The position numbers and the translations under genes are program-made. Below are positions 3,839 to 62,638 of a DNA stretch of 64,000 nt, in pieces. The stretch covers positions 20,646,209 through 20,710,208 of the forward strand of contig OX424562.1 in assembly GCA_949152475.1 (NCBI GenBank), written 5' to 3'. Each line of letters opens with the position of its first letter. Positions within the stretch are counted from its first letter, which is position 1. This DNA is from Terebella lapidaria (lineage: Eukaryota > Annelida > Polychaeta > Terebellida > Terebellidae). Under the pieces are notes generated by a model. The model saw nothing but the letters and a program-made list of their open reading frames with translations, searched no databases and was not told the DNA's origin.

Positions 3839-4591
3839 AACCAAAATATATTTATGGTAAAAAATTATTTCAGGTTTTGTGTTGAACTCGATGTTTTATG
3901 TCATCACATGATGTGAAAACGTGGAATCTCATCAAAAGTGGAATGGTTGCAAGGTCACATCCGACTACTGATCAAGAAAATAAGCAATCAAACGAAAGAG
4001 CGTAAACGAAAAAGAAGAAATGAATTCAATGTATATGATTAAATTATTTGGGAAATTCGCGAGTCCACTATTACCCGGTTCGACAGAAGGATGGGGTCAA
4101 TGAACCATGGCAGAAAATAAATGAATAAAATTTATAAAATATATCAGAATAGAGGAGAACCGGTCATATGTCGGCGTTTGAGAAGGCAGTCACGTTGGAA
4201 ATTGCTAAAGCTTTTCAGCTATTTTTGCCAGGTTTATCTGGGGCAGAAAAACTATTTTTACACCATTTTGTCGGTAAGGTAACAAGGAAACGCATAACTG
4301 TATCATATATCAGGATACGGTGGATAATGTATGTTTTTATCAGGATTTTAAACTGAATGGTTGTCAATTTTGTGTCACGCATCAACGAACACACTTGTTG
4401 TCGTCAGTTTGGTTAACGGCGTACCTGGTTTATCGATTTTTCTCCGTTTGGCCTCCACGGCCAGCAACCTGGTGGTTGTACGCATGTTATACAGTTTGTG
4501 TGAGCGTGCCTTAGCACAATACCTGTTTTATGTTTCTTCTGTCTGAGTTCATTATGGTTGTCGGTCTAGCAATACAACATTCTTCATAGTC
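3839..4591. other. Region upstream of the LINE ORF, no gene recognised
   Basis: About 750 bases hold only short open frames without recognisable domains. Part is probably the 5' untranslated region of the LINE that follows. I did not find an ORF1 or a clear 5' end of the element here. Confidence 0.4.
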
Positions 4592-7500
4592 GTGTGTGGT
4601 CGCGTTCGCAATGTAGAGTGTTATTGTACAATTGTACAATACACCTGCGTTGCGTCTTTCTATATTTTACTTCATACTCTGGTTGTTTGCTTTAAAATGG
4701 ATTTTCGCTTTACAAAAATTATTATCCTGTTATTAGTTTTCTTCATTGCCAGGAACAATCACCTGCAAAATGAACACCTGGATAATGCCAAATCTGAGGT
4801 AACTGGTGAACCAATGCCCATTAACTGGTTTGTGCTTGCCCGCTATTCTAGGACAAACTGCATACAGTTCCCTAGTAGTGTACGTGCGTTTGGATTGTCC
4901 GCATTGTTGATTTTGGCAGGTGACATCGCCTCAAATCCCGGCCCTGTTAACTTTGCATGTGGAAATTGTCGGTCCATCAGGAACAAAGGTCCGGCCATCG
5001 CGGACTTGGTCACCTCTGCCAAATGTGACATTTTTGGAATAACCGAGACGCACATCAGGACTAATGACACTGCATCATTTCTCAGTGAACTAACCCCTAG
5101 TGGATATAAACTCTTCCATTCCCCTCGCGTTGGAAAGACGGGCGGTGGTGTTGGTTTCCTGGTAAAACAAACTCTGGATGTCTCCCTGGTTGCAGCACCT
5201 AGTTTTGGTTCTTTTGAGAACATTGTCGTTTCTGTACGATGGCGTGATAACACATTGAATTTTGCTTCAATCTATAGACCCCCTGGTTCTGGTATTGCAG
5301 TTTTCCTGGAAGAATTTATGTCATTTTCTGGTTTCATATCGTCCCTGTCTGCCTCAACTATAATCAGCGGTGATTTCAACATCCACATTGATACCGTTTC
5401 AAACACCAGTTGTGATTTCAAATTGATGCTCGATTCCTGTAATTTTGTTCAACATATAAACTTCCCTACTCATATCCATGGCCACACTCTCGATTTACTT
5501 ATCACCCCATCGGATTTCACAGTGGAAAATTTGTGTAGGCTGGGTTGTTTAAGCGACCATTTCTGCATCAGTTGCACACTGGATATCGATTCAGCCCCTA
5601 AACCACCTAGTAAATACATAACATTTCGTCAGTATCATAAGATAAATCACGAAAAACTAAAACAAGATCTGCAAAATACTGCCTTCATTGTATCGCCTTC
5701 TGACAACGTTACCGAACTTTACGACCAATATATAAACAGCCTTTCCTCTGTAATTGATGCTCATGCACCACTAAAAACGAAATGTGTGGACAAACCCACT
5801 CCAGTTTGGATAACTCCGGAATATCGTGAGGCCAAACGGTTACGTAGACAGCTTGAAAGAACTTGGAGAAAAGTCCCATCTGTGCTGAATAGATCGAAAC
5901 TACGACGACAGATCAGTAAATGCAACTCAATCATAAACAATTCAAAACGAGATCATTACACTAATATTATTAAGAACAATTCTGATGATCCAAAAAAACT
6001 ATGGAAAGAAATGAACAATATTTTGCACAGGAAACATCAGGCTGCTTTGCCCGGAGGCAAAGATGACACGCTCCTTGCCAATATGTTTGGTTCTTTCTTC
6101 ACAGACAAAATCACACGTATACGAAACAATTTCACAAAGCAGCCTAAACAGACCACTTCACCAGCGATATCACCTGTTGAGTTCAATCACTTCGAGCCTG
6201 CATCTGAACAGCTTATTCGGAAAGTCATTCTCGATTCTCCTACTAAATCATGTATTCTCGACCCTTGGCCCACTTTCCTGGTTAAAGATTTTGTTGACAT
6301 TTTGGTACCATCTATCACTAAATTGGTTAACTGCTCCATGATGGAAGGTTTAGTGCCTAGTAGATTGAAACAGGCTGTAATTACTCCATTGCTTAAAAAT
6401 CCCTCGTTATCCAAGGAAGAGATGAAAAACTACCGCCCAGTATCGGGTCTATGTTTCATCTCCAAACTGGTTGAACGAGTGGTTGCATCCCAGATTAAAC
6501 AACACTTGGATAAAAACAATTTGGGTAATCCATTCCAGTCTGCCTACAAGAGCGGCCACTCAACAGAAACTGCGTTGTTGAATATAAAGAATGACATACA
6601 CATTTCGTTGTCAAAAAGCATGCCGACTGCTCTGGTATTACTTGATCTTTCGGCTGCTTTCGACACGATCGACCATACAGTTCTCTTGGAATGTCTATCA
6701 TCTTGGTTTGGCTTTGGTGGGACTGCACGCAAGTGGTTCTCGTCCTATTTGTCTGGTAGGGTCCAATCAGTTAAGGTTGGCGACAGCCTTTCAGAGCCCG
6801 CAGATATAAAATTTGGTGTTCCACAGGGATCAGTTCTTGGTCCCATTTTGTTTTCCATGTACACAACACCTCTACATAAAATAATCTCTGCACATAATAC
6901 GGTTAACTATCATTTCTATGCTGATGATACTCAGCTTTATATGCCACTCTCACAAACAAATTGTGCTACGGATCTAGTCACGCTCCAGGAATGTCTCAAA
7001 GATGTCCAAAACTGGATGAATGCAAACAAGCTTAAGCTCAATCCAGATAAAACTGAGTTCATCCTGTTTGGTACCAAGTCTCAAAGGGCTAAGATGGCAG
7101 ATTGTTTTCCAGTGGATGTTCTTGGAAATGAAATCAGTCCTACGGAAAGAGCACGCAATTTAGGTGTTGTTTTTGATTCTGATTTTTCATTCTCCAATCA
7201 GGTTGTTTCTGTTTGTAAATCATGTTTTGTGGGTCTTCGCGACCTAAGAAGGATCAGGCGTAATCTCTCGAAAAGCAATACAATTACATTGGCTAATGCA
7301 CTAGTTAGTAGTAGACTTGATTATTGTAATTCATTGTATAGGTCTTTATCCAGTCGGGATTTGAATAAGTTACAATGTGTTCAGAATACTTTGGCCCGCA
7401 TTGTCACTCGGACATCTAAGTTCTCTCATATTACCCCTGTTCTCAGGTCACTACATTGGTTGCCCATTAGGCACAGAATAGAGTTTAAAACCGCAACAAT

Positions 7501-7693
7501 TATTTATAAATCATTGCATACGGGACTACCTGCATATTTCAACGATCACCTAACTTGCTACACATGTAAAGTGAACACGAGGCGTGGCAATCCTGATAAA
7601 CTGTTCCTCCATGTCCCACTTTATAAACCTTCCATTAATAAATCAAAGGTTCAATTTCAAAACAGTTTGAGTTATGACGGCCCTTCACTTTAG
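4592..7693 (+). CDS. LINE ORF2-type polyprotein: endonuclease and reverse transcriptase, late nonsense codon
   Basis: The 1033-codon frame encodes the protein that nicks target DNA and copies the element RNA into it. Visible in order: a hydrophobic segment at residues 43-53; a 2A-like motif ending in NPGP at 115-118; an APE-type endonuclease from about 120 to 330, with an ITETH block, GDFN at 260-263 and SDH at 321-323; a linker rich in Lys and Arg; and a reverse transcriptase from about 560 to 860. The latter has DLSAAFD at 685-691, FGVPQGS, and catalytic YADD at 776-779. The stop TAG at 7691 sits where relatives usually have Trp. The frame then stays open for 31 codons to TAA at 7787-7789, so a single substitution explains the truncation. 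A second Met at 4697 would place the hydrophobic segment at residues 8-18 like a signal peptide and may be the true start. Confidence 0.9.
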   Translation: MCGRVRNVECYCTIVQYTCVASFYILLHTLVVCFKMDFRFTKIIILLLVFFIARNNHLQNEHLDNAKSEVTGEPMPINWFVLARYSRTNCIQFPSSVRAFGLSALLILAGDIASNPGPVNFACGNCRSIRNKGPAIADLVTSAKCDIFGITETHIRTNDTASFLSELTPSGYKLFHSPRVGKTGGGVGFLVKQTLDVSLVAAPSFGSFENIVVSVRWRDNTLNFASIYRPPGSGIAVFLEEFMSFSGFISSLSASTIISGDFNIHIDTVSNTSCDFKLMLDSCNFVQHINFPTHIHGHTLDLLITPSDFTVENLCRLGCLSDHFCISCTLDIDSAPKPPSKYITFRQYHKINHEKLKQDLQNTAFIVSPSDNVTELYDQYINSLSSVIDAHAPLKTKCVDKPTPVWITPEYREAKRLRRQLERTWRKVPSVLNRSKLRRQISKCNSIINNSKRDHYTNIIKNNSDDPKKLWKEMNNILHRKHQAALPGGKDDTLLANMFGSFFTDKITRIRNNFTKQPKQTTSPAISPVEFNHFEPASEQLIRKVILDSPTKSCILDPWPTFLVKDFVDILVPSITKLVNCSMMEGLVPSRLKQAVITPLLKNPSLSKEEMKNYRPVSGLCFISKLVERVVASQIKQHLDKNNLGNPFQSAYKSGHSTETALLNIKNDIHISLSKSMPTALVLLDLSAAFDTIDHTVLLECLSSWFGFGGTARKWFSSYLSGRVQSVKVGDSLSEPADIKFGVPQGSVLGPILFSMYTTPLHKIISAHNTVNYHFYADDTQLYMPLSQTNCATDLVTLQECLKDVQNWMNANKLKLNPDKTEFILFGTKSQRAKMADCFPVDVLGNEISPTERARNLGVVFDSDFSFSNQVVSVCKSCFVGLRDLRRIRRNLSKSNTITLANALVSSRLDYCNSLYRSLSSRDLNKLQCVQNTLARIVTRTSKFSHITPVLRSLHWLPIRHRIEFKTATIIYKSLHTGLPAYFNDHLTCYTCKVNTRRGNPDKLFLHVPLYKPSINKSKVQFQNSLSYDGPSL
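4919..4945 (+). other. 2A-like ribosome-skipping motif in the LINE ORF
   Basis: Residues 110-118 read GDIASNPGP, directly after a Leu/Ile/Ala-rich run and just before the endonuclease. The 2A consensus is D-x-E-x-NPGP. Here the Glu position is Ala, which is unusual and could weaken activity. 2A-like sequences at this position are known in some CR1/Crack-type LINEs of invertebrates. If active, the ribosome would skip between Gly117 and Pro118, releasing an N-terminal peptide and leaving the endonuclease-RT starting with Pro. Confidence 0.75.
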
Positions 7694-47884: not shown

Positions 47885-48545
47885 TAATAAGCGACATATT
47901 AGCCATTTTGTTCTCTGACCTTGAAAATGAGATCAAAGGTCAAATTCTAGATCACCAAAATATTCAGCATACATCATTTCCTATATGTTCACTATGGACC
48001 CCTAAGCTGTAAATTTGATAATAAGCGAGATATAAGCCATTTTGTATTCTGACCTTGAAAATAAAATGACTAACCTTGAAATTAAGGTCAAGGGTCAAAT
48101 TCAAGGTCACTAGAATATTCAGCATATATCATTTCCTATATGTTCACAATTGATTCCTAAGCTGCAAAGTTGCTAATAAGCAAGATATTGGCCATTTTGT
48201 CCTGTGAACTTGAAAATGAGGTCAGAGGTCAAATTCAAGGTCACGAGAATATTCAGCATATATCATTTCCTATATGTTCACAATTGATTCCTAAGCCGTA
48301 AAGTCGATAATAAGCGAGATATTAGCAATTTTGTCCTGTGACCTTGGAAATGAGGTCAAAGGTCAAATTCAAGGTCACGAGAATATTCAGCATATATCAT
48401 TTCCTATATGTTCACAATGGATTCCTAAGCTGTAAAGTCGATAATAAGCGAGATATTAGCCATTTTGTCCTGTGACCTTGAAAATGAGGTCAAAGGTCAA
48501 ATTCAAGGTCACGAGAATATTCAGCATATATAATTTCCTATATGT
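47885..48545 (+). repeat. ~134 bp minisatellite rich in AGGTCA half-sites, array 2
   Basis: AAGTCGATAATAAGCG recurs at 48301 and 48435, 134 bp apart, with earlier units less regular. Units at about 48341-48382 and 48475-48515 hold TGACCTTG, AGGTCAAAGGTCA and TCAAGGTCA in the same order as array 1. A further partial unit sits at about 48830-48900. Confidence 0.88.
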
Positions 48546-49389
48546 CCACAATTGATTCCTAGTCTCTAATCTCAATATTAAGTGAGATATTAGGCTTAAT
48601 GTGTCCCATTATAAAGCATAGGAAAATTTAACATGGGAAAGTCACATCTGGGCCGAGTTTGGGCCCAAAATGGCCCACTTCGAGTGATTCAAGCGCAACG
48701 AAATTTATACATGTCACAGAAGTACATATGAGGAGTGTTATGCATCAATAAGAAAAACAGTTACTGAACAGATTTTGAGAAAACGACCATCAAAGTCCAA
48801 AATTAGCCATTTTCGACGATAACGGCCGCTATGACCTTGAAACCAAGGGCAGAGGTCAAATTCAAGGTCACGAGAATATTCAGCATATATCATTTCCTAT
48901 ATGTCCACAATTGATTCCTAGTCTCTAATCTCAATATTAAGTGAGATATTAGGCTTAATGTGTCCCATTATAAAGCATAGGAGAATTTAACATGGGAAAG
49001 TCCCATTTGGGCCGAGTTTGGGCCAAAATGGCCCACTTCGAGCGATTCAAACGCGACGAAATTGATAGACATCATAGGAGTACATATGAGGAGTGTTATG
49101 TATCAAAAAGAAAAAAAGTTACTGAACAGATTCTGAGAAAATGGCCGCCAAAGTAAAAAATTGGCCGATTTTCGACAAAAACAGCCGCCATTTTGAAAAA
49201 ATTGCGAAAATAAAAAAACTAAAAAATACTTCCTTCTTGAATTATTTTTGTGCATTTTTGTGCAAAATTTCAGAAAGATTGGTCCGTAAACAAAAAAGAT
49301 AAAAATGTGGACGACGCCGACGCCGGACGCCGGGCGCAACGCCATGCCAATAGGTTAGCGGACCAAAGGTCCGGTAACCTAAAAATATC

Positions 49390-49520
49390 CTGCTGAAGAG
49401 AGTGACACCAACACATCCAAAGAACAGTTCAAGATGGAGAACACTGCTTTGAAGCAGAAGATCGCTCGATTGCAGACAGAAAACAGCAACCTGAAAACAA
49501 TATATATGCCACAGTGATTT
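49390..49520 (+). CDS. Coiled-coil coding fragment (leucine-zipper-like)
   Basis: From about 49392 a frame reads SKEQFKMENTALKQKIARLQ and then TENSNLK, ending at TGA 49515-49517. The heptad spacing of Leu/Ile and the acidic-basic pattern are typical of a short coiled coil, as found after the DNA-binding domain in THAP-type transposases. The frame is short and has no identified neighbour, so it may be an exon of the composite transposon that starts here. Confidence 0.4.
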
Positions 49521-49775
49521 GTATCCTACAAATGGTAGGCCCGCCATGTTAATAATATACAAGTGAGGACACAACTTTTCAGGGGTCTTGGCAACAACAC
49601 CTTTAACATGTTCTACCAGGGAAACGAACGTCACCAATCATTCGGATATGTCCTAATAAAGTCAATTTATACTCACAGTACTTGCTATGCATGCATTTAT
49701 TCACTTTCAATGGATTTTTGTCTTCAAGAAATTCACGAGAATTCCTTCCAAGCGCAAGTTGACAGCTACAATCGG
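49497..49775 (+). repeat. Outer inverted repeat, left copy
   Basis: The sequence from about 49497 (CACAGTGATTTGT) through ACAAGTGAGGACACAACTTT (49560) to TTCCAAGCGCAAGTTG (49761) matches, inverted, the segment 62150-62408. Similarity is interrupted by indels. The peptide readings RTQLFRGLG / RTQLLTGLG and IHENSFQAQV / FHENFFQAEV are also similar. These are either outer ends of a ~13 kb transposon or two opposite copies of a dispersed element. Confidence 0.65.
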
Positions 49776-49779
49776 TACC

Positions 49780-50214
49780 GACTAAAATTCGTATTGAAAG
49801 AGGAATTAATCTGGTGGTACCACACTTTCCTGCATACAACTACTTATCGATCTTCCCTTGCATGAAACATTGAACATAATCTGATAATTGGTTCGTATAA
49901 AGGGTACTTCCTTCATACTTACAATTACTTATAATGATATTTGGTACGTCTACATGTGGTATTTAAATGGCCATGCCATTGAATGTAGCAATGGATCCGT
50001 AATGAACTTACTCTGTAGCCTATACCTATACGGTATTGCACCACAATTGAGGGCTTCAGCCACTGTGGTTAAACGTGAATTTATTGAAAACAACTTGTTT
50101 ACATCCAAGGTTACCGAAAAATCACATTGCAGAAAGCATATTGATGTAATTGTAAAAAGCAAATGACTTATTTGACATACCGGTATCATAACTTAACATA
50201 ATTGTAACATTTGA
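49780..50214. other. No gene recognised between outer and inner inverted repeats
   Basis: A 92-codon frame at 49888-50166 starts at TTG and has no domain. It could hold an exon of the composite element, but I see no support beyond the open frame. Confidence 0.35.
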
Positions 50215-50215
50215 C

Positions 50216-50725
50216 GCCCACGCCACACAGGGCACACGCGGCGGGCATCGTAATTACTAGAACTACAACCAGGTAACAGTCTGTCCAGACGAGTCCGGCA
50301 GTCATACATCACATCCTAACACATGAACAACATCATCATCATGATACAACATATACATTAGTTATGGTAATGTAACCGTATGTGGAGCCTGAGATGTCAT
50401 GTGGCTGGCCGGCCTCGCCGAAGGCACTGCCACAGGGATAGAACCCTGGACAGTCCGACGGTCTGCCAGAGCCTGTGTCGCACCATCCCAGGGCGAAAGA
50501 CTGGTGCAGGGACGAGCCCCGAATTAGCATGGTCCCCCTCCTGGCCCCCCTATGGGAGTCGTCCACAGGGCCCTCACGGGCCTTAGCCGGTGAGTGGGAA
50601 TGTACAGATCATGGCCGAGCCCTCTGTCGTCCTCTCGCCTTGCCAGCAGTGAGACAACTCCACTGAACAAGACGGCTTCAGAGTATTTATAACCCCTAAA
50701 GCACGAGACACGAGGGATGACGTAA
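50216..50725. repeat. Left terminal inverted repeat of the helicase/transposase element
   Basis: This ~500 bp GC-rich segment is matched in inverted order by 59595-60035. Shared blocks are CAGGGCAC...GGCGGGC near 50230, GGATAGAACCC near 50436, GGTCTGCCAGAGCCTGTGTC (50460) with CGCACCATCCCAG, CTCGCCTTGCCAGC...GAGACAACTCC near 50632, AGTATTTATA near 50680 and ACACGAGGGATGACGTA near 50707. Identity is moderate with indels. The exact outer end and target duplication could not be fixed. Confidence 0.75.
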
Positions 50726-50947
50726 GACCATTGTTTCAGTACCATGGAGTGAGAGGATTAGAGGACGTTGCTCTGCAGCGCACGTCTTTCGAATACGAGG
50801 CGGCCAAAAGAAGAGTAGTATTTACAAAGAATCTCCTGCCATGATCTTTGAGCGAAATCGCCACATAATATTCGCTCAATGTCAATATGCCCTATATTTT
50901 AAATAACATGTACTGAAAAATAATTCTTTCTGATCGTTATTGCTTTA

Positions 50948-51705
50948 TTAAGGATGTTCGCTCCCTTTGGACCCAAGCAGAGGGGCTAAAATTTGAAATT
51001 CGTTTGATGATATTCATACTTTTAAACAATCATCAATATGATATTGTGCACGCGAAAACAGAGAATTCGGAACAAATATTCTCTTCAGTGTGGAATTATG
51101 GGTAATTTTACCCCCAAAATACCAGCAAAATGGGTCATTTTTTGCCATTTTCACTAAAACCAATATTTAATGAAAACCTGAAAATAGATTTCCCTAAATT
51201 TTTGCTTGTTTATCAACGAACCAATATGCATGTTTTTGATAGAAAAAAATATGGGGGTCACCATGCTATTTTTTCTGTTATAGGTTGTCATATTTGTGAA
51301 TGTCAGTGAATTTTATCCAAATTTCAACAAATTTAGGTAAAATTGTATGTTCTGGATTCATATGGATGCCTGTAGAAGGAAAATTAGCATGGTGACCCCC
51401 ATATTTTTTTCTATCAAAAACATGCACAGCAGTTCGTTGATAAACATACACAATCTCAGAGATATCTATTCACAGGTTTTTATTAAATATTGAATAGAGT
51501 GAAAATTGCCCAAAATGACCCATTTTCCTGGTATTTTGAGGGTAAAATTACCCATAATTCCACACTAAACAAAATATTTACCCCGAATTTGCTGTTTTGG
51601 AATGCACGATATCATATTGATGATTGTTTGAAAGTCTGAAATACATTAAACAAAATTCAAATTTTAGCCCCTCTGCTTGGGTCCAAAAAGAGCGAACAAC
51701 CTTAA
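50948..51705. mobile_element. 758 bp foldback transposon with TTAA target site
   Basis: The two arms (50952-51295 and 51360-51701) are near-exact reverse complements over roughly 340 bp, leaving a central spacer of about 65 bp. The ends are GGATGTTCGCT and its inverse AGCGAACAACC, each bordered by TTAA (50948-50951 and 51702-51705). TTAA targets are typical of piggyBac and Kolobok elements. It is inserted between the left inverted repeat and the helicase gene. No ORF. Transcripts would form a long hairpin. Confidence 0.9.
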
Positions 51706-52121
51706 ATCAAAGTTGTGGAATTCCATTGGCCCGGCAATTTGGTTTCACTAAAAACAAACGCTGCATGTACTGGATTGTTTCGCTTTTCACTTATTTAATA
51801 AAATATTTCATATATTTTTGTTCATATACATGATATGAAGAATAAAAGAATACAAATATTAAAACAACAAACTTTATTAATAATGTCCTGAAAACGGGAT
51901 CCTCACGCCGTGTACCAATGGTGTGTAATTGGGCACGACTATATTGTCGACCGAGTTTGGTCATGTATATCCGCTTTTTACACCTCCCATAAGTCGCCGA
52001 GGGGAATTGAATGGATACTTCTGATTGGCTAATGGTCATTTTAGTCACGTGTCATTCACTATCTTGTGACGCTAATCCGTTTGACCTTCATATGGTCAAA
52101 TTGCAGTAGGGTCAAAATATC

Positions 52122-55100
52122 ATGGTGGACAAAACGGCAATTTTGGACGCCGTACAGGCTGGCCACAACCTACTAATTTTAGGCGCGGCGGGAACAGGGA
52201 AAAGTCTATTGTTGCATGAAGTGCTTAGCACGGTTGGTAACGGGAAAGGAAAGAATGTGGCAATGACAGCAACGACAGGCATTGCTGCCACTCACCTCCC
52301 AGGAGGAATGACTGTCCATAGGTTGGTACCACAGACACATTAATTACTGTTTACATGTTTACTACATTCAGAAAAAATAATTACTGAAAGTAATGTTGAG
52401 GAAGTACATATTCAATATTAAAAAGAATGTTTATGAAGGATGTGTTAGCATGCTTGGATTAAGGTGTTAGGGTTTAAATGCAGATACTGCGGTATACAGG
52501 ATGGAAGGTATGATGCCTCTACCATCATCAACAAACTGAGGACAAACTCCGACTACTCACATATTGCGGAAAGGCTGCGATCAACCGACCTTTTGGTCAT
52601 TGATGAGATATCCATGTTGTCTGCGCACATGTTTGATTTGATTGAAGAGGTATGTGTGACGTGTAAAGTTGTGAATTGTCATGTAGAATGTGATAAACGT
52701 CATATATATCTGAAATATGAACATTGGAATCGGGGCACTGAAATGAATATTGTTTTCTAGGTTGTTCGACGTATCAAGGACAATGGCCTGGTGTTTGGAG
52801 GGGTACAGGTCGTACTGTGTGGCGACCTCTACCAGCTAAAACCCGTTCCAAATGCACAGATTGGTGACCCTGGCCATTACTTCCACCAGTCTGATATATT
52901 CAAGACAGCTGTCCCACACCATTTCACCCTTAAGAGAGTGTATCGCCAAATGGAAGGTAGTAATGGTCCTTGTCCGTTATCATGAAGACTATATGGATAT
53001 ACTGTCATGTTATAATTAAAGATAATCGTGCTGCAAGTTGAATAATACTTCCATATCAGAAGATTTGGTGGGATGCATCCACCAAGTGACGAGAGGGTCT
53101 ATCGATACCACTTCCATGGCACTCCTGAATCGAATGCAACGTCCTCTCCCACCTGGATCAGAGCCACTCAGACTGTTTGCACTTAATGCTGACGTTGAGA
53201 AATGTAATGCTGATCACTTACTGGATATGCCAGGTATGTATGACACATTTGTGTTGCATTTTAGTATATTATTTGATGTGTGTTACCATCATGACACATC
53301 ATGTTATTGTATTCTCAGATATAAATCCAATTACAGTGATGCAAACATTTACTGGATGCAGGAAACACCACATATTGGAACATGTATGTGGCATAATGAA
53401 CTATGTCAATATTACAATGATGATTACAGAACTGTTGGTCATGATAGATACACTGATTCATGAATAAGTTACAAGGTGATAATTATGAACTAACCCATGA
53501 TACAAGTATATAATGAAGTCATATTGTTCTGTACACATTGAAATGGTATAATACATGTGAATACATTTGAGGACATAAACTGTCATCATATAACAATCTA
53601 TATACAGATGCAAACAGATTTCTGTAATGATGAAGTTGTTGGATGACACATTATATGAAGACATTCTTCAATCACATGACACTTTCAACATCAAGGTCAT
53701 TGTAATACATGGAATATCGTAATCATACTCCATTTACAAGCGAGAATGTCTGACGGTAACCCACAATGTCAGTCAAATGTGTTGCTTTCCATGTGGACCC
53801 TCCAAGCTTGACACGGAACGATGTTGTGTTCGTGCAGGGCAAAATTTGCCTGGAAATTCGCGATTCTCCTTGGAGGCATCAGGCCCATGAACATCAACCT
53901 TAACGTCTCTGGTCGAAAGACTCCGCCTGTGAACTGAGGGCGTGTGATGGACCAGACTGCTAGGTGGGCTTTGCGGAGCAGAGACAGACATGGAATATCA
54001 GTCACAGTGTAGGTTGTGGGGCCGATCACAGCCGGCACTACGCAAACCACTGACAAAAAGATATCAGACGGGGAACTCGTTGGTGTTGTTGCCCTCTTTA
54101 GATTCTTGAAACGGACATCATCGTTATCAATTACTTCTTAATTTTGTTGGTATAGAAGTTGAATGGTTTTGCTGCAGGAATGCCAGTATTGGATTTAGTA
54201 CAGCGGGATTTCAGTGATTGACCCAAAATGATGGAATTAACTGTACTGCTATAGGCGGCATATGTGGGATTAGTCGTGTTGCCATTAAAGTGTCCACGCA
54301 TCTGGCAGAAATGATTTTCCACTAGGTCAGTATTGAACCGCGATGGAAGGACTCCACTGGAAGGGAACTCTGTCAGGTGAAGGCGGCACACCTCTGGGAA
54401 AGCTACGAGAAGACATTTCAGGTCCTCTAGGCATTCCCACGTGGGCAGAAGTGATGACTTGCTGGGGCCAGGCTGTATGCGGGATGACGATGACAATTTG
54501 ACAGACTTCTCCCATTGGTCGAACCAGGTCCACACCTTCGAAATAATATTGAAAATAACAGCAAACATGTCCATGTCACACGAAATGACACCAAGGACAG
54601 GAAAAAATAGGATAGGAACATTATGGCCCAAGAAGTACATTTTAAACAAATGTTCTATTACATTTACATTTTCTTACCTGCTGCAGTTGTGCCAGACGAT
54701 CATCAGCCATGGATGTTATTGGCCGGGGATCACGAAACACTCGAATGAGAATACTGGTTTGCTCCAGAAGTTCCACACTTGAAGTCAGGAATGCTCCATC
54801 AGCGCCTAAAAAGTTAGGATTGGAAACATTGTTCACATTGTATATTGTGAGACACGTATTTAATATTATTGCCAAATCAGTACTGCATGGTAAACTCGGA
54901 AAGCAAAACTATTGCATCAGTACCTGCAAAGCTTTGTTGGTAATACTTCATAAGATGTAGCATGTTGTCATCTAGCATATCCTCAGCTAACGCATTACGC
55001 ATCTTTTGCGGACCATCCGGGTTTAAGTGTTCTTCGGTGACGACTCGATGGATGGGTCTACTGTTGGTTTCCCGGTCCCACTGTACTGCATCTTTCCATT

Positions 55101-58100
55101 GCTGCCACTCGATGTAATGACCTCCTTTTTTCATTCTTCTTGTGTGAACACCTTTGGTAATTCCACTGTGTAATATGCTATTCCGTACTTTCTTAATGGC
55201 GTGTGAGAAGTCTTGGCAGTGGACTATTTTTTGGTCAGGGTAGACAAAGTTGACTGCAACATACCTTGCTGTCAGCGGGCATTCGGAGAATTGTGACTTG
55301 ACAAATTGTCGATTTTCCTCACCGCCGTCTTGAAGGGTGAACTGCACTGTGAACCCATAATCACTGAGTTGGGATATGGCATCCCAAATGACGATATTCA
55401 GCTCAGAAGCTTTCATGCTCGTGCATGGGAGGTGACACAGAGGAAATCTGAACCCGGTGTATCCCAGGAAGGATAGTTGCCAAACCTGAGTTGCCAAGGT
55501 GCGGGTGATCTTTCGCTCTTTAAGTGCTCGTAGACATGACCCTTCCAACCCAGTGTCAACCCATCCACTCAAATATGGTTTACCATTTCTGTACACTAGC
55601 ACAAGGTCCTGTTGGATGCTTGCTTCATCATGTACAAGGCCTCCACTCTTGCCACACTCTGGAACTTTGGCTTCCTTGGCAGCTTCATACATCCAGTGTA
55701 GCATATCCCGATGTATGCCTGGTTCCTGGGTGACACTGTTCTTGTAGCGCCGCAGTTGTCGCCCAGAAGGCAGCACCAGGGAGTGGCTGTCCTGCAAGAT
55801 TTTGTAATTTCCCGGGCTGTGCACCCACAGACTCAAGCATAAGCTTAAAACAGTGTGGATTGTCTTTGCTGTTAGGGCATCGTGCTGGGCTTTCAGGAGC
55901 GTTTTCATTTCTTCTGATGCTCCAGGAAACACTTTAAGTAAAATTTGTTCCAAATCCATTTGGTCTGAATCGGAAAGATGGATCTGCTCATTTTGACCTT
56001 CATGCAGTCGTGTCACAGGCTCGTCTCCATTTGTGGCTATGGGCTCATGATCATGTTCAGCCCTCATGGCGACTTTTGCTCTGGCAGCATGTATGTAAGA
56101 GACATCATTGAAGCCATGTTGACAAGATTTACAAATGGATGTGTATGAAGTGATGTGGACCACTTGTTGGCATGAAGTTAGTCGGCACATATCTTCAGTA
56201 CTGGTTTCGCCAACGGAACTGATTTTCTCCTTGATCATTCTTGGATTGTTTGTTGCATCGGGAATATCGTTCGTGCGCTTGCCCATACAGAGGCTGATGA
56301 CCTGAACGATAGTGATGACTGCCTTGATAGACTCCTTAGTCATCTGAAAACTGTTGCAGATGCCAAGATCACTTAAGCCCACAGTACGTCCTCGCACTGT
56401 CAGGGTCCACTGCATGTCAGTTGTATTAAAGGTTATCTCTTTGCCAACAATACTACCGTTCATGACTGTTGTTGTAGGCAACATTACAGTTACATGTTCT
56501 GGGCCAGGCTGACCAACAACCACTGCCTTATTATCAAGGCAATTGACGATGTCTTTCATGTCTATTTCAGTCCTGGTTTGAACTTTCCATCCAACACCCC
56601 TATAGACTGTAACAGGCTTGTCATGCAGTTGTCGTTTGGATGAAACACGAACTTGAGGGAACAATTCCTTCAGGAACTTCCCTGCCCATTTCCTGTCAAA
56701 AGAGTTCTGACTGTACTCTCTATACGCTGTCCATATGTCATCACAACGTACTGTGCCACCAGCATCTGCCACAATATTATCCACCAACCTGCAAAATAAA
56801 ATATTCCTACATTTTCTGATGTCATTAATTAGTTGATATTGGGGAATGCCAAAAAACTAAATTGTTGCTCACATGATATTGCATACATGACACTTATCGC
56901 ATTTGCAAAACTTAACATATTTTGAAATAGAATGAAATGTATGCATTGGGCATGACAAAAGTGTATTGTTGTATTTGTAGTCCATTGTATCAGTCTTAAG
57001 CCTACCTCAGCTCTTATGGTGTCATATTTCCATGGTGACATCATGTGTCTGACATGGGCAAGATGTCACTTATATTTCGTAAGTGGAATTACGCTTGCCA
57101 CATTTCCATTTTTTTATGGTATTTCTTACAGGTGAGATGGTTTGTTTTTCATCTGAGGATCATGGACGTCAAGACCAGTTGTACAATAGCCCTGCTTTGC
57201 AACAGTTGTACCTAAAACTTGACAGTCCAGTAATACTCGTAGTAAATTTGTCCAGTAAACTCGTCAATGGTTTGCGAGGTCATGTTAAAGCCTATGATCA
57301 ACAGTCTGTAACTGTTCACTTTGAGGAAATAGGTGAGATAGTCAACATCCAGAAATTCACATTTTTGGTGTGGAGTGCATTGAACAATGAGGTTATTGCT
57401 ACACGGATACAAATCCCGTTGCGCCTTGCTTTTGCTCTCACTGTCCACAAAGCCCAAGGGTTGAGTGCTGATCGGGTAGAGGTTGACTGTAGAAATATGC
57501 ATGCACCGGGACAGCTAGGTGTCGCCATTGGACGTGTTAGGGCCAAGAAAGGTTTAAGAGTCGTCAACTTCAACAATCACTGCCTATGCAAACACCCCAA
57601 TATTATAACAGATTTTTATGAATCTGCAAGTAAACCGTTGCAACCCGGCATTGAAGGGTGTTGCAGGACTGTGCATGACGACAATATGGATGCCACAACT
57701 GCAGTAACTCACCCGGAACCTCAGCAACAGATTGATGTATGTGATGAGGATGACATCATTGCATGCCTGGATGAGAGTCTCGATCATAACGTGTATGGCG
57801 TCACAGCATCACCAAGTACAGATTGCAGTGAAACTATAGTACAACCTTCTTCCTCTGGAAATAATAATGAATACCCTGATGACTCCATTGGTCCATCAGT
57901 TGCTAACGATGTTCTCCCATATCTTTTGAGCTATAAGTATGACAATGTCCAAACAGATCAGCAACGGCAACTGAACACTACAATAGACAGCCTGCAAAAT
58001 TCCTTCTATGACTTGGGTACCTTCGTCTCCAGAGTCCACAAACATTTTCACACATTAGCCAAACAGATATTTCCCGAACTTTCATGTGAAAATAAACACA

Positions 58101-59803
58101 CCACATCTTTCTACAAGGAAGCCATGGCATATCTTGCAACAAATCAATATAAGGACGCTATCAAATGCTTATTTCACATCACAGATATTAGCAAAGTCCA
58201 CTATCGGGTCTGTTTCCTGATGTGCCAGTACATAAGGAGTCATGTCATCAAATCGATAACCTCAACATTTATGAACCCTGACAATAACAACGTTAACCAG
58301 CAACCTGCAGATTTTCCTGGTTCTGATGGGGGTGATGCCATCATACGATACATCGCTGGCTGGGCCATTGCCAACATGAAGTACAAGCAATCCAGGATTG
58401 TGAGAAAGAATCTGTACAATAAACAGAAAAGGGAGTCAGTGGACACTGCATATGCCAAGGTATTGGCCTTAGAGAAGTTGCTGTGCCCACAAGATTATAT
58501 AAAGGAACATACTGCTTACCCAGCCTCACTGACATATATCGAAAGAAAACAGAACCTTCGGTTCAGCTTGAGCCATGTCAAAGATGCAGTCTTCCTATTT
58601 GTGAAACAATTAGATAATATTATAAGACTGACCCAATCGGAACCGAATATCACCCTTCATGGACCAAACCTGTTCGATTTCTTATATGAGGAACTAACCA
58701 CCAATGGACAATTGAAAACATCATGGTCATCACTCCATACCGATGACACCAGCTGCACAGTTGTTGATGACTTATTCACTGAAGTAATCAATAAATACAC
58801 AATGATGTCCATCGCTCAGTTTCGCAAAGACTATATTATGAAGCTTAAGAGAGAGAAAAAAGAAGCCCATAGAAAGCAGATAAAAATCAAACCAAACGAA
58901 ACTGCATCTGTTTGCAACTACGCTTACATCATGGCAGACACCACTCAAAACAAAGTTGCATCTCACAAACGTTTGCAGTGTGAGCTGGCTCAGAATGCTA
59001 ACTTTCTCGAGAGTTTCACAAAGGAACAATTGCTAGTCATAGGCAAAGTATATGGAGTGCCATGTAAAAAGAGCAACAAGAAAGCAGTTGTCGCACAACA
59101 GATCACCCCAGGCATTACAAATCGTGTAGACGCACCAGATTGGACTCCATACTTGGATGCCTCAGGTACTGGCCTTTCAACAAACTGCATTTTCTGTTCA
59201 AACACGTCAACCACACTAAATTCAAGCACCTTCGTCCCAATGCACGTAATGTATTGTGTCCTGTATACTAAACAACATTGTCATGTAACATTTGTCGCCG
59301 GCCCTCTGGGCCACAAGCGCCTCACCCTGTGGCATGTTCATTGCCAGCTCGTGATTCAGGAGTTAGCACATTCGACATCGCACAGTCCACATGGGGACAG
59401 AACACGGTTATTCGCACGGACAGACAGTAACGTTTTCTTGCAGCTAGGTAGTGCGCAAGTGCCCCATCAGTGGTGTCTGACCCACAATTTAGTATTTTTT
59501 ATGGACCCACAACATACATATGTGGCGATTCCAGCCAAAGATTTCGATAGGAGTTTGGTTGTCCTTCTCTATACTGAAAAAATAGTGCTACGTCATCCCT
59601 GGTACTCATGCGCTGGCAGTATAAATACTGCCAGCCCGTCTTGCTTATTTGGAGTTGTCTCAGAGCTGTCAAGGCGAGGGGATGACGGATGGCACGGCTA
59701 TGTGCTCCATGTCCCCTTTCACTGGCTAAAGTGGGGCAATTTCCAAATGGGGGCTCAGGAGGGGGGCCGCTTCGATCCAGGGGCGCACGCCCCCATGGAT
59801 TAG
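52122..59803 (+). CDS. PIF1-family helicase with long C-terminal extension, five exons
   Basis: Joining exons 52122-52321, 52484-52649, 52761-52956, 53060-53233 and 57132-59803 gives one continuous frame of about 1135 codons. All introns are GT-AG and phases agree. It encodes an ATP-driven DNA-unwinding enzyme: Walker A GAAGTGKS at 21-28, GIQDGR at 70-75, Walker B VIDEIS at 105-110, motif III GDLYQLKPV at 143-151, motif V VHKAQGLSADRV at 350-361, motif VI GRVRAKKGL at 379-387. The extension (about 400-1135) has a YIAGWAI block near 652, a SAP-like helix pair near 874-903 and a Cys/His cluster from about 931. The last ~50 residues run into the right inverted repeat. Intron 4 (53234-57131) contains a transposase gene on the other strand. 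No stop or frameshift interrupts the exons. It probably serves transposition rather than the host. Confidence 0.88.
53770..54139 (-). CDS. Open segment downstream of the transposase, unknown
   Basis: On the minus strand a frame stays open from about 54139 down to TGA near 53770, about 120 codons, overlapping the transposase stop in another frame. It reads VIDNDDVRFKNLKRATTPTS and later TDIPCLSLLRKAHLAVWSIT. The composition is protein-like. It could be a frameshifted extension of the transposase, an alternative 3' exon, or a separate exon. Family not recognised. Confidence 0.4.
54131..56788 (-). CDS. P-superfamily (THAP9-like) DDE transposase, three exons, first exon missing
   Basis: Exons on the minus strand at 56788-54924, 54805-54678 and 54535-54131 join with GT-AG introns and matching phases into about 798 codons. 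The enzyme would cut the element out and insert it elsewhere. Visible parts: an N-terminal region of unknown fold (1-180); a Cys cluster at 201, 206, 219 and 222; an RNase H-like core with HDEASIQQ (Asp387) and LQDGGEEN (Asp487); CQDFSHAIKKVRN at 524-536; a GHYIEW insertion-domain block; and the C-terminal acidic motif FNTDLVENHF (Glu737), followed by NTTNPT as in P and THAP9 proteins. The upstream end is a splice acceptor (TTTTGCAG) with no ATG, so a 5' exon, possibly with a THAP domain, is missing or outside what I could find. It lies entirely in intron 4 of the helicase gene. Confidence 0.82.
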
Positions 59804-60035
59804 TGGTCTGGGATGGTGCCTGGGATGGTGCGACACAGGCTCTGGCAGACCGTCAGGCTGCCCGGGGTTCTATCCCCGCGGCGGACCGTCGGTGAGCCGG
59901 CAAGCAACAACTTACAACATGGTGATGATGCTATATCTGAGTGGTGTCATACTGTACGGGCTTGCTCGGTAAACTCCTACTTAGTGAATGTTCTAAATTA
60001 ATTACCTACACCCGCCGTGCCCTAGGTGAGTGCCT
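59595..60035. repeat. Right terminal inverted repeat of the helicase/transposase element
   Basis: Inverse match of 50216-50725, with the same block order and similar GC content. It contains a TATAAATA box within a short palindrome at 59618-59638. The C-terminus of the helicase frame reads through its inner half to 59803. The corresponding inverse frame in the left repeat also stays open (GVVSLLARREDD against GVVSELSRRGDD). Confidence 0.75.
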
Positions 60036-60179
60036 TATCCACGAAGATCCGGGATAGCGGGTATCAGACTTGACACATATATGCTTAATATTGCACACCT
60101 ATGTTGCCACTTGTACCCAAGGCCACCAGCTACAGATGAGGCTCCCACCACATGAGGATGTGGGAATATTAATCGTTCG

Positions 60180-60250
60180 GCCTAGGCGACAGTCCCTAAG
60201 GGGATAGAACCCTGATAGCCCATAACAATGACAGAGCCTGTTCACACCAC
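60180..60250. repeat. Third short copy of the inverted-repeat core
   Basis: A ~70 bp stretch with GGGGATAGAACCCTGATAGC and CAGAGCCTGTTCACACCA matches the core of the left inverted repeat (50425-50490) in the same orientation. It may be a remnant of another element end. The GGTTCTATCC word on the minus strand resembles a tRNA B box, so an old tRNA-derived origin of this core is possible. Confidence 0.5.
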
Positions 60251-60253
60251 TTC

Positions 60254-60562
60254 ATGGAAGACTGTGTGGTAACTGAGAGCACAGACACCTCCAACACGGC
60301 CACAACCTCTCCTGAGTTGATAATTACCCTCGCTCTTCGGGACGAAGGTGGGTCTTTGCTGATACAGATGAAAAAAATGGGATACCATGGTTTGACTTAC
60401 ACAACATTTATTCGATATGAAAAAGCCAAATCCAAAATTATGTGGACTCAAGCAGCATGCAATAATGTATATGGATCCAAAGATGCCACATCGAACATTG
60501 AAGCAAGTGAAAGCAAAATTAAAACAGTAAACGGAGGGTGGGAAACAGCATGCAACCGATGA
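60254..60562 (+). CDS. ORF of 102 codons, unknown
   Basis: ATG-started frame directly after the 60180 repeat. The middle is protein-like (GYHGLTYTTFIRYEKAKSKI) with balanced charge. No domain recognised, no splice support. It lies within the span of the outer inverted repeats and might be an accessory exon or a chance frame. Confidence 0.3.
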   Translation: MEDCVVTESTDTSNTATTSPELIITLALRDEGGSLLIQMKKMGYHGLTYTTFIRYEKAKSKIMWTQAACNNVYGSKDATSNIEASESKIKTVNGGWETACNR

Positions 60563-61503
60563 CTAAGGTTCGCGGGAATGAAGCAGGGTTATGCATGTTG
60601 GTGGAGTCTAGAAGGGGGTATCCATTGAAAGACTCTCTGGAGGCTGGCCGGCTGCGGTCTGGGTGATACACGCCGCTGGAAGGCGTCAATGATGCGAGTT
60701 CCATGGGTGAATTTATGAAGTTTTCCTGAAACTGAAGTGAATTCATCACTTTGGGGCCATTCAGCCCTTACCAGAACGGAACAGACAGTTGTAATAATTT
60801 TATGAGCTTGACAATGCTATGTCAACAAAAACTACCGTAGCCAGTTTCGTGGAACATGACGGAAACATAAACACATGCTTACATGTATAGTTTCACCGAT
60901 CCATTAATAGAGTTACATATATAACGAAACATTCGCTTCCAATGTTACCCTGCCAAAATAACAAATGGAAGAGATTTTGGGACGAAATGCTGATCGTGAT
61001 ATGAGGCATTCCACACGATCGTATGTGGACTCCTCATGTCAACGTCATTGGAAGATCACTGTGTTTATTTTTGTCTTTTAACGTCATGATATAGTAAGGT
61101 CAAACAAATTGTCCTCCATGAAACAGCACACACTATTTAGGTGTAGGAAGCAGCAAATCAAGGTGTAGGAAGAAATGTAATTAATTTATTGCACATGTTT
61201 TTGTGGTAATCGAACCAAGCACAAATACGTATCTTTGTCCTGTCTTCAAACACGTAACACAATGCACTATGTGGAAACACTGTTCGGTAAAATATTGTAG
61301 GGATAACCACACTAATCTGTAATTTTTATTCCTTCTTATTTTGGTGAGGTGAACCCATAAATAATTATATGAAACATAATATCAATTAATCATATCGTGC
61401 AAGAAAATGTTACATTTCAATTCAAATATATGATTCAATGTCTGCATGCATATTATGAATGGTGTCGTTTCACACTGTCACTTACAATGTACGTTATATT
61501 TTA
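60563..61503. other. No gene recognised
   Basis: AT-rich DNA upstream of the PHD exon. I see no other exon that splices in frame with it. Confidence 0.35.
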
Positions 61504-61504
61504 G

Positions 61505-61698
61505 GGTCACAAACTGAAGAGCCACAGAGCAAACGCCAAAGGGTGGAATTTCCATGCGGCATATGTGATGTGGAGTGCGTTAATTCATGTGTTGGATGTG
61601 ATACATGTGATCGGTGGTTCCACTACAAATGTCTAAAAATTAATTCACGCAATAAATCACTGAAAGCAGCCAAATGGTTCTGCCCCGAATGTAGAAGG
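61505..61698 (+). CDS. PHD-type zinc finger exon
   Basis: An open segment between a splice acceptor (TATTTTAG ending at 61504) and a donor (AGAAG/GTAGGA near 61698) encodes a PHD-like finger. The pattern is CGIC, then a GCDTCDRWFHYKC block, then WFCPEC, giving the Cys4-His-Cys3 ligand order and the conserved Trp before the last Cys pair. PHD fingers read histone tails, and they also occur in transposon and retrotransposon proteins. No adjoining exon was found. Its position between the inner and outer inverted repeats suggests it belongs to the composite transposon, but this is inference. Confidence 0.7.
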
Positions 61699-61704
61699 TA
61701 GGAT

Positions 61705-62140
61705 AAAAATTATATGCATGATCGATAATTGTGTATGTATGTACTGTAATGAATTACAATGCTCAATGTTCCTGTATTATCTGACACAGAAATTCGATAA
61801 TTGTCTTTTGCTCTATCGTACTAATGGAATTAGTCACGGTGAATACACTATTCATACAGTGGCCAATGCAGTTGAATTAGCGGCCTGACGCCAGATTGGA
61901 ATGACCTGTCTACTATTCTGTTGCTATACAAACAAATATCAGAAATGGAATTGGGCGTTCTGAAAAATAAACATATCATACGAATGTATTGCACCAACAT
62001 ACCAAGATACTATGAATGAATTTTTCGTAGACATTTCCTTCTTTGGGATTTAAATTTCAATGATATATGTAATGTGATAAATGTTCCATTTTCAGCCAAT
62101 GACGGTAGACACGACCTTGAACATGTTGAACTTCGTGGTT
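61705..62140. other. No gene recognised
   Basis: AT-rich sequence after the PHD exon, with no further domain visible. Confidence 0.35.
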
Positions 62141-62144
62141 CCCT

Positions 62145-62410
62145 CACACAAGAGCAACTTCCGCTTGGAAGAAATTCTCGTGAAACAGGAGATTGTGAAA
62201 ACTGCTCGAAAGTGATATAATTGCATGGATAGGAAGGATTGTGAGTATGAATTGTGTTTAATATCGTATATGCCACCAACTGCTGCATCTGGTTCCCCTG
62301 TCGTAGGTTGTCACAACGTACTTGCCAAGACCTGTCAAAAGTTGTGTCCTCACTTGTATATTTACAATATGGCGGCGCCCGTTCGTTTGTGGACACAAAT
62401 CACTGTGATA
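62145..62410 (-). repeat. Outer inverted repeat, right copy
   Basis: Inverse of 49497-49775. Matches include CACAGTGATTTGT, ACAAGTGAGGACACAACTTT, GTCTTGGCAA and TTCCAAGCGGAAGTTG, read on the minus strand. It lies just 150 bp left of the LTR retrotransposon. Confidence 0.65.
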
Positions 62411-62638
62411 TATGCGACCTGCAAGGTATTCAGTATGTTGTATAAACTGTTTGTTTGATTACAATGTGTTTTGATCAAATCAATATAGGATTAATCCCAG
62501 CCTTAGTTGTTTGAGCATGAGTATAATGGCAGTCGTTAGCAGAATGAATCCATCACATTGTAACAAAACCATGCAACTGCCGCGCTGAAACGTTCGTTAG
62601 GAACGGTCACGTGATCTACAAAGTCCACTTGCGAAGAC

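Follow-up and report, generated by a model that had tools for sequence, protein, structure and literature searches.

How a P-type transposase and a PIF1 helicase came to lie together in the genome of Terebella lapidaria, and whether they move as parts of one transposon, is the question raised by the 64,000-nucleotide stretch of DNA analysed here (hereafter, the window). A sequence-only reading had proposed that both genes are co-mobilised in a single P-like element occupying positions 50216-60035. Comparison within the genome bore out the co-mobilisation, with two whole 12.9-kb copies sitting at different loci between different 8-bp target duplications (TSDs), but moved the ends of the element to 49510 and 62407.

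Ends of the element and repeats within it

The ends were delimited by comparing the window with a second genomic copy (G000:C9:13669128-13682041), which has the same ends at another locus and is 99.2% identical across the element. Both copies start with CACAGTGATTTGT, and the colinear match stops at 49510 and 62407, delimiting a PIF1-carrying P-superfamily transposon of 12,898 bp (~12.9 kb). Exact 8-bp TSDs flank each copy and differ between the two: ATATATGC in the window, with identical left (49502-49509) and right (62408-62415) duplications, and CCAGAGAC on both sides of the C9 copy. Since the second copy and these TSDs set the true ends, the element measures 12.9 kb and not 9.8 kb. The left terminal inverted repeat (TIR; 49510-49761, plus strand) starts with CACAGTGATTTGTATCC, and the right TIR (62155-62407, minus strand), placed by the shared ends of the second copy and by alignment to the left one, starts with CACAGTGATTTGTGTCC when read on its own strand. 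These TIRs are ~252 bp long and 72% identical, and the motif ATACAAGTGAGGACACAA occurs at offset 47 of the left TIR and again in the right end. All three insertions whose flanks were read, including one from a second family described below, carry an exact 8-bp TSD (ATATATGC, CCAGAGAC and AGTTCACA); the 7-8 bp anticipated for a P-type element thus proved to be 8 bp once full copies were aligned. Apart from the window and C9 copies, the genome yielded no full copy of the window's family.

The ~450-500 bp inverted repeats that had been taken for the termini do exist and are inverted, but both are internal to the element and represent a dispersed repeat. One copy, ~660 bp long with TG...CA ends, spans 50203-50866 on the plus strand; a diverged copy facing the opposite way lies at approximately 59519-60061 on the minus strand, in the helicase intron between exons 5 and 6 (labelled intron 6). 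Genome-wide, a first look returned 3,583 candidates for this repeat, and all 40 of those scored matched. As termini the repeats were rejected: they occur independently elsewhere in the genome, and both the copy boundary and the TSDs lie outside them, as does the helicase exon encoding a PHD finger. An element bounded at 50216-60035 therefore has next to no chance of being correct, even though the repeats are real and inverted and similar ones occupy corresponding places in the second family. The original proposal had named widespread repeats devoid of both genes as evidence against itself; this is true of the repeats it described, but those are not the ends.

With their TG...CA ends and flanks of TAAT/TAAT in the window, TAGT/TAGT at locus L014 and TATAC/TATAC at L007, the ~660-bp repeats resemble solo LTRs, a label that stays weak because no clear duplication flanks the repeat at L004, L008 and L017. 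Given the corresponding placement of similar repeats in the second family, they may instead be old integral parts of the element. A palindrome with 346-bp arms (84% complementary) at 50948-51705, a MITE-like insertion, is present in the C9 copy too.

A transposase gene nested in a helicase gene

The helicase, encoded on the plus strand, was correctly recognized as PIF1 in the sequence-only reading, and its joined core scores 117 bits against Pfam PIF1. Five exons had been assigned to it, whereas our gene model has seven, encoding 989 amino acids with a PHD finger near the C-terminal end. Exon 1 (52122-52321), within the Pfam core match, carries the Walker A motif GAAGTGKS, and exon 2 (52484-52649) the Walker B motif VIDEIS; they are followed by exon 3 (52761-52956), exon 4 (53060-53233) and exon 5 (57132-59165), which contains the remaining core and a C-terminal extension of ~480 residues common to homologues. 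The PHD finger (Pfam PHD, 39.4 bits) is encoded by exon 6 (61505-61697), which is joined in frame to exon 5 by a GT-AG splice and falls outside the interval first considered; exon 7 (62096-62102) supplies the final codons and stop in the splice model. PHD was also recorded in the helicase homologues P0045, P0050, P0052 and P0055, and was under the cut-off in P0041. An AlphaFold 2 model of the C-terminal part had a mean pLDDT of 52.6 and was left out of account.

The transposase gene sits within helicase intron 4, on the opposite (minus) strand, and matches the P-type family PF21787 with 33.7 bits (cut-off 24.6). Its P-type assignment and three main exons agree with the earlier description: exon 2 (54924-56788), with the N-terminal region and the first two catalytic Asp residues, exon 3 (54678-54805) and exon 4 (54131-54535), with the catalytic Glu (DLVENHF) and the stop. 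There is perhaps an additional short first exon (56887-56918), which is modelled only; it is open, in phase and has a GT donor, but lacks support from relatives, among which no convincing conserved model for it was obtained. The D, D and E columns are invariant in 17 aligned transposases and align to acidic residues of the Drosophila chain that we take to be the catalytic ones. The matched range covers the GTP-binding insertion domain of the P element, and among the P-element residues named in the accessible text of PMC7776569, D528 is kept, and K400 and V401 align to R and N (counted by hand on the alignment). A single-sequence PDB search with the transposase returned no match.

Pfam scans of the window's open reading frames (in which exon 1 is tentative) and of the homologues P0002, P0010 and P0018 detected no THAP domain. 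Residues 1-69 of P0002 instead form an RFX-like winged helix in a predicted model, and Pfam RFX exceeded its cut-off in one of the three scanned homologues, P0018. Transposase relatives were named from molluscs, a sea cucumber and a priapulid; in viral contigs, relatives of neither the transposase nor the helicase were confirmed.

The window copy may be weak or dead, as its transposase exon 2 lacks six residues found in the C9 copy and most homologues. Between these two copies, the transposase differs at 4 synonymous and 4 non-synonymous codons (excluding the 18-nt indel) and the helicase at 8 and 7, respectively, which shows no visible recent constraint on either gene.

A second family and recurrent pairing of the genes

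A second family in the same genome has the same nested layout, with a transposase ~57% and a helicase ~53% identical to those of the window. Its 255-bp TIRs are 99.2% identical, both ends contain ATACAAGTGAGGACACAA, and the insertion is flanked by the 8-bp TSD AGTTCACA. Between two families, helicase dS is saturated and dN is 0.30. More globally, a helicase lies within 15 kb of 46 of 60 merged transposase loci, and the pairing persists in families whose proteins are only 26-42% identical to those of the window; in distant families, the two genes have convergent layouts. Separate occurrence of the two genes, which would have spoken against co-mobilisation, was the less common state: among the loci scored, unpaired ones numbered 14 out of 60 for the transposase and 4 out of 49 for the helicase. 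Some unpaired loci are fragments; others belong to distant families with long open reading frames, which may lack the helicase or carry one diverged beyond detection.

Of the 27 helicase relatives ranking highest in a protein collection, 4 lay on a contig of exactly the same size as that of a transposase relative, compared with none of 79 lower-ranked PIF1 matches. Divergence of transposase and helicase correlated across 18 loci (rho 0.76), a value not counted as evidence, as the loci were hand-picked and related and segment lengths were mixed. Since the pair recurs in many related elements of this genome, transposase and helicase appear to have long travelled together.

Genomic sequence by itself thus shows the ends and TSDs, the existence of two copies and of a second family, the gene layout and the recurrent pairing. 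The locus is very probably one 12.9-kb P-superfamily cut-and-paste transposon with ~250-bp TIRs (CACAGTG...) and 8-bp TSDs, in which a P-type RNase-H transposase and the surrounding PIF1-PHD helicase are co-mobile.

Role of the helicase and relation to known elements

By homology, the transposase would cut at the TIRs and join the ends to the target with an 8-bp stagger. The helicase might act after excision, driving strand-displacement synthesis of the Pif1/polymerase-delta type templated by a homologous copy or a sister. The ~13-kb element would thereby be copied back into the donor gap, and its numbers would increase; through its PHD finger, the helicase might be tethered to chromatin. That the helicase drives such copy-back is a serious possibility, although we stop short of calling it probable.

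Rather less likely, the helicase works before or during cleavage, for instance by opening or reshaping the ends to suit the staggered cut and the unusual arrangement of strands in P-type transposition. P ends are indeed cleaved with a stagger of 17 nt, and the transpososome holds the transposon DNA in a strongly rearranged form; however, P transposition has been reconstituted in vitro with GTP as the required cofactor (PMC7776569, accessible text), a system in which a helicase would seem dispensable, and no physical link between transposase and helicase was seen. Less likely still, the helicase is carried along as a passenger and has no part in transposition. The absence of visible recent constraint between the two copies would suit a passenger, but passengers are expected to decay, so that the adjoining genes in distant families and the dN of 0.30 against a saturated dS count against this role. 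Insertion of a helicase-free P transposon into an intron of an unrelated PIF1 gene, followed by segmental duplication, would account for a transposase lying wholly inside the intron on the other strand, but is highly improbable: TIRs and TSDs enclose the helicase as well, the ~57% identical family shows the same nesting with a different TSD, and distant families have convergent layouts. Finally, Helitrons encode a Pif1-like helicase and an HUH Rep nuclease and lack TIRs and TSDs; a rolling-circle element of Helitron type that also carries a P transposase can practically be dismissed, since, although Helraiser is among the PDB matches, the core matches PIF1 chains far better (best match E 1.5e-62, compared with 1.9e-20 for Helraiser), TIRs and 8-bp TSDs are both present, and no Rep-type match was found among the open reading frames scanned with Pfam.

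The co-mobile element has the P-type catalytic core (PF21787), the D-D-E residues, TIRs and 8-bp TSDs (7-8 bp expected) of the P superfamily. It differs from the Drosophila P element and THAP9 in that their N-terminal THAP domain was not found and homologue P0002 is RFX-like, and from the P element in length (~13 kb compared with ~3 kb) and in its second gene, the PIF1-PHD helicase. AcademH, of the Academ superfamily, reportedly (Kojima 2020) also combines a transposase and a helicase in a DNA transposon, with a transposase of another superfamily. Its TSDs are 9-10 bp (PMC10045372, accessible part), in contrast to 8 bp at the three insertions here. P-element TIRs are 31 bp (PMC7776569, accessible text), compared with ~250 bp here. 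KolobokH and Kolobok-1_CCri, of the Kolobok superfamily, likewise unite transposase and helicase in one element, with the helicase on the complementary strand in Kolobok-1_CCri; there, however, the helicase is RecQ and the TSDs are TTAA (PMC9587614, accessible part), whereas the present animal element has PIF1 and 8-bp TSDs, none of the three being TTAA. Galileo, a Drosophila member of the P superfamily, shares the long TIRs but has a 7-bp TSD, and the accessible parts of PMC2775673 and PMC3573991 do not mention an element-encoded helicase. The literature covered on cut-and-paste transposons with a helicase, which excluded Repbase and most subscription papers and so leaves an earlier description possible, contained none for the P superfamily.

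Most likely, therefore, the element moves by P-type cut-and-paste and has a PIF1-PHD helicase as an accessory protein, which makes it an analogue of AcademH and KolobokH. A broader proposal, which we regard as rather doubtful in its entirety, is an undescribed P-superfamily lineage, with the transposase relatives named above, in which an RFX-like winged helix would have replaced THAP, a P transposase and a PIF1-PHD helicase would be combined, with one gene placed inside an intron of its partner in two or more families, and the helicase would turn cut-and-paste into effectively replicative spread via Pif1/Pol-delta copying into donor breaks.

To gain copies, P elements depend on the host to repair the donor break, and an element with its own repair-type helicase would make this dependence directly testable. 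The element further suggests that P-type transposases can function with another DNA-binding domain. If the reading is true, this would be the third cut-and-paste superfamily with a recruited helicase, here of the PIF1 kind, after AcademH and KolobokH, and recruitment in three superfamilies hints at a common need in eukaryotic transposition.

Element ends and target site duplications

Comparing the window (C8:20646209-20710208) with 60 kb of contig C9 from the same genome revealed one colinear match, spanning window positions 49509-62407 at 99.2% identity, while the remaining matches above 200 bp were short repeats lying off the colinear line. Base 49509 is the final base of the target site duplication, by chance a C in both copies. 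The outer 250 bp of the element form inverted repeats, and its insertions are flanked by 8-bp duplications, ATATATGC/ATATATGC in the window and CCAGAGAC/CCAGAGAC in C9. From the match limits, inverted repeats and duplications, the element occupies 49510-62407 (12,898 bp); the C9 copy measures 12,914 bp. Aligning full copies, as the sequence-only reading had proposed, thus yielded shared ends with differing duplications, and placed these ends outside the ~450-500 bp inverted repeats that it had taken as the element's borders (50216..60035). A 17-base end pattern occurs without mismatch at five genomic sites, four of which are the ends of the two copies; with up to one mismatch, it occurs at 27 sites, compared to 11 for a reversed control pattern. 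The fifth exact site (C16:23142646-23142662), for which no partner is found nearby among the listed sites, might be an isolated end or belong to a small non-autonomous relative.

The supposed terminal repeats are copies of an abundant, dispersed ~660-bp repeat with TG...CA ends, at 50203-50866 (+) and about 59519-60061 (-). Using the left repeat as query returned 3,583 first-look candidates, and all 40 that were scored matched. Thirty loci were cut out and 28 (all but the window and C9 copies) compared with the window: 11 spanned both edges, matching from before 50210 to beyond 50860, and 17 matched partially. Five of the 11 have their own flanks and in six one flank is shared. At the C9 locus the match continued well past the repeat. 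Diverged ~660-bp repeats also lie at corresponding positions in a second P-like family of this genome (loci L067 and L068), so they may be either integral subterminal repeats or repeated insertions. Both element copies further contain a MITE-like palindrome (50948-51705; 346-bp arms, 84% complementary), which has an Rfam match to MIR2646 far under the gathering score. Immediately left of the element, tandem 134-bp and ~358-bp repeats rich in GGTCA/TGACC-type words occupy 48001-49191. Elsewhere in the window, a 1048-aa ORF (4547-7693, +) has an endonuclease domain together with a reverse transcriptase domain, resembling LINE-type retrotransposons.

Structure of the two genes

Both genes of the sequence-only reading were confirmed in the stretch it gave, the helicase on the plus and the transposase on the minus strand. 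Pfam identified PF21787 in a 659-aa ORF on the minus strand (54877-56856), corroborating a P-type transposase. Its model comprises exons at 56788-54924, 54805-54678 and 54535-54131, all enclosed by helicase intron 4, and homologues align as far as the stop codon; a tentative 32-base first exon (56918-56887, -) is possible, without support from relatives. On the plus strand, PIF1 was matched in exons within the originally proposed stretch. The joined helicase core scored 117 bits for PIF1, and its closest structures were likewise PIF1 (E 1.5e-62; Helitron Helraiser, E 1.9e-20). Instead of the five exons first described, GT-AG splicing gave seven with the frame kept (989 aa): 52122-52321, 52484-52649, 52761-52956, 53060-53233, 57132-59165, 61505-61697 and 62096-62102. 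Exon 6, past the former right border, encodes a PHD finger (39.4 bits), also listed in the homologues P0045, P0050, P0052 and P0055 from the protein collection; in P0041 the PHD score is below cut-off.

Aligned with each other, the window and C9 copies differ in 107 columns, of which 71 are substitutions. Both genes are open in each, with 18 nt of the C9 transposase missing in-frame from that of the window. In the helicase, 8 codons differ synonymously and 7 non-synonymously, and in the transposase there are 4 of each kind (indel excluded), so recent constraint is not visible between these copies.

Gene pairing across the genome and beyond

Searching the genome (761.6 Mb, 438 contigs) yielded at least 87 transposase ORF matches (67 of 220 candidates scored) and at least 72 matches to helicase exon 5 (65 of 299), lower bounds because only part of the candidates was scored. 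Merging left at least 60 transposase and 49 helicase loci. A helicase lay within 15 kb of 46 of the 60 transposase loci, against about 0.1 such neighbourhoods expected by chance (60 x 49 x 30 kb / 762 Mb), and within 5 kb of 44; on C11, one merged helicase locus is common to two transposase loci. Among the loci scored, 14 of 60 transposases and 4 of 49 helicases had no partner. As several families contain near-identical copies, for example seven loci at 99.2-99.7%, not all loci are independent events. Paired genes always lay on opposite strands, 38 pairs being divergent as in the window and eight convergent, with the two genes facing (C8:18337194, C2:38421881, C6:37182563, C27:110892, C8:21231218, C1:62543501, C14:11754556 and C12:7803922). 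The latter belong to distant families with 26-42% identity to the window's proteins and a different layout, and represent an older or rearranged arrangement of the partnership.

A copy of the second family (C8:10251905-10264892, 12,988 bp), read in pieces covering all but part of helicase exon 5, starts with CACAGTGGCTCGTGTCC, has 255-bp terminal inverted repeats (TIRs) of 99.2% identity and is bracketed by AGTTCACA on either side. It preserves the window's order of helicase exons 1-4, opposite-strand transposase, helicase exon 5 and PHD exon. The motif ATACAAGTGAGGACACAA, present in all four ends of the window element and this copy, is a candidate transposase site. Between families, dN is 0.30 for the helicase (418 codons) and 0.34 for the transposase (609 codons), with dS saturated and a dN/dS ratio hence not calculable; such values alongside saturated dS fit long-term purifying selection on both genes.

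In the protein collection, we found 39 transposase relatives, with Holothuria, Pinctada, Priapulus and Mytilus among named sources and a distant relative from Chlamydomonas. Helicase searches gave 3 hits, then 104 in a further search. Named sources in the best 27 (P0040-P0066), picked by rank rather than by individual check for the C-terminal extension, were Tegillarca, Holothuria, Mya and Haliotis; those from Holothuria and Haliotis align to just 23-24% of the query. Four of these 27, and none of the 79 lower-ranked hits of the further search, come from a contig exactly as long as that of one of the 39 transposases, equal size being read as the same contig. A search of viral contigs confirmed no relatives of either protein.

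Possible roles of the helicase

Like that of P elements, the transposase would bind to the TIRs, cut the unit out and integrate it elsewhere through an 8-bp staggered target cut. For the helicase, we tentatively favor a repair role, in which element-encoded PIF1 might promote copying of the 13 kb back into the donor gap. This suggestion builds on accounts of host pathways, including Bloom helicase, that mend P donor breaks (PMC7776569) and of break-induced replication driven by Pif1 with Pol delta (PMC13237216). Remodelling of the element ends by the helicase appears less probable than this repair role, and a mere passenger helicase is more doubtful still.

A literature search aimed at P elements, with Repbase outside its scope, found none with an encoded helicase. 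AcademH and KolobokH provide precedent for a transposase together with a helicase; AcademH differs from the window element in superfamily and target duplication, and KolobokH in superfamily, target duplication and helicase type. Together, the helicase-carrying P element is well supported as an element, its mechanism being a proposal, and a transposase-helicase combination known from AcademH and KolobokH is here found in a P element.
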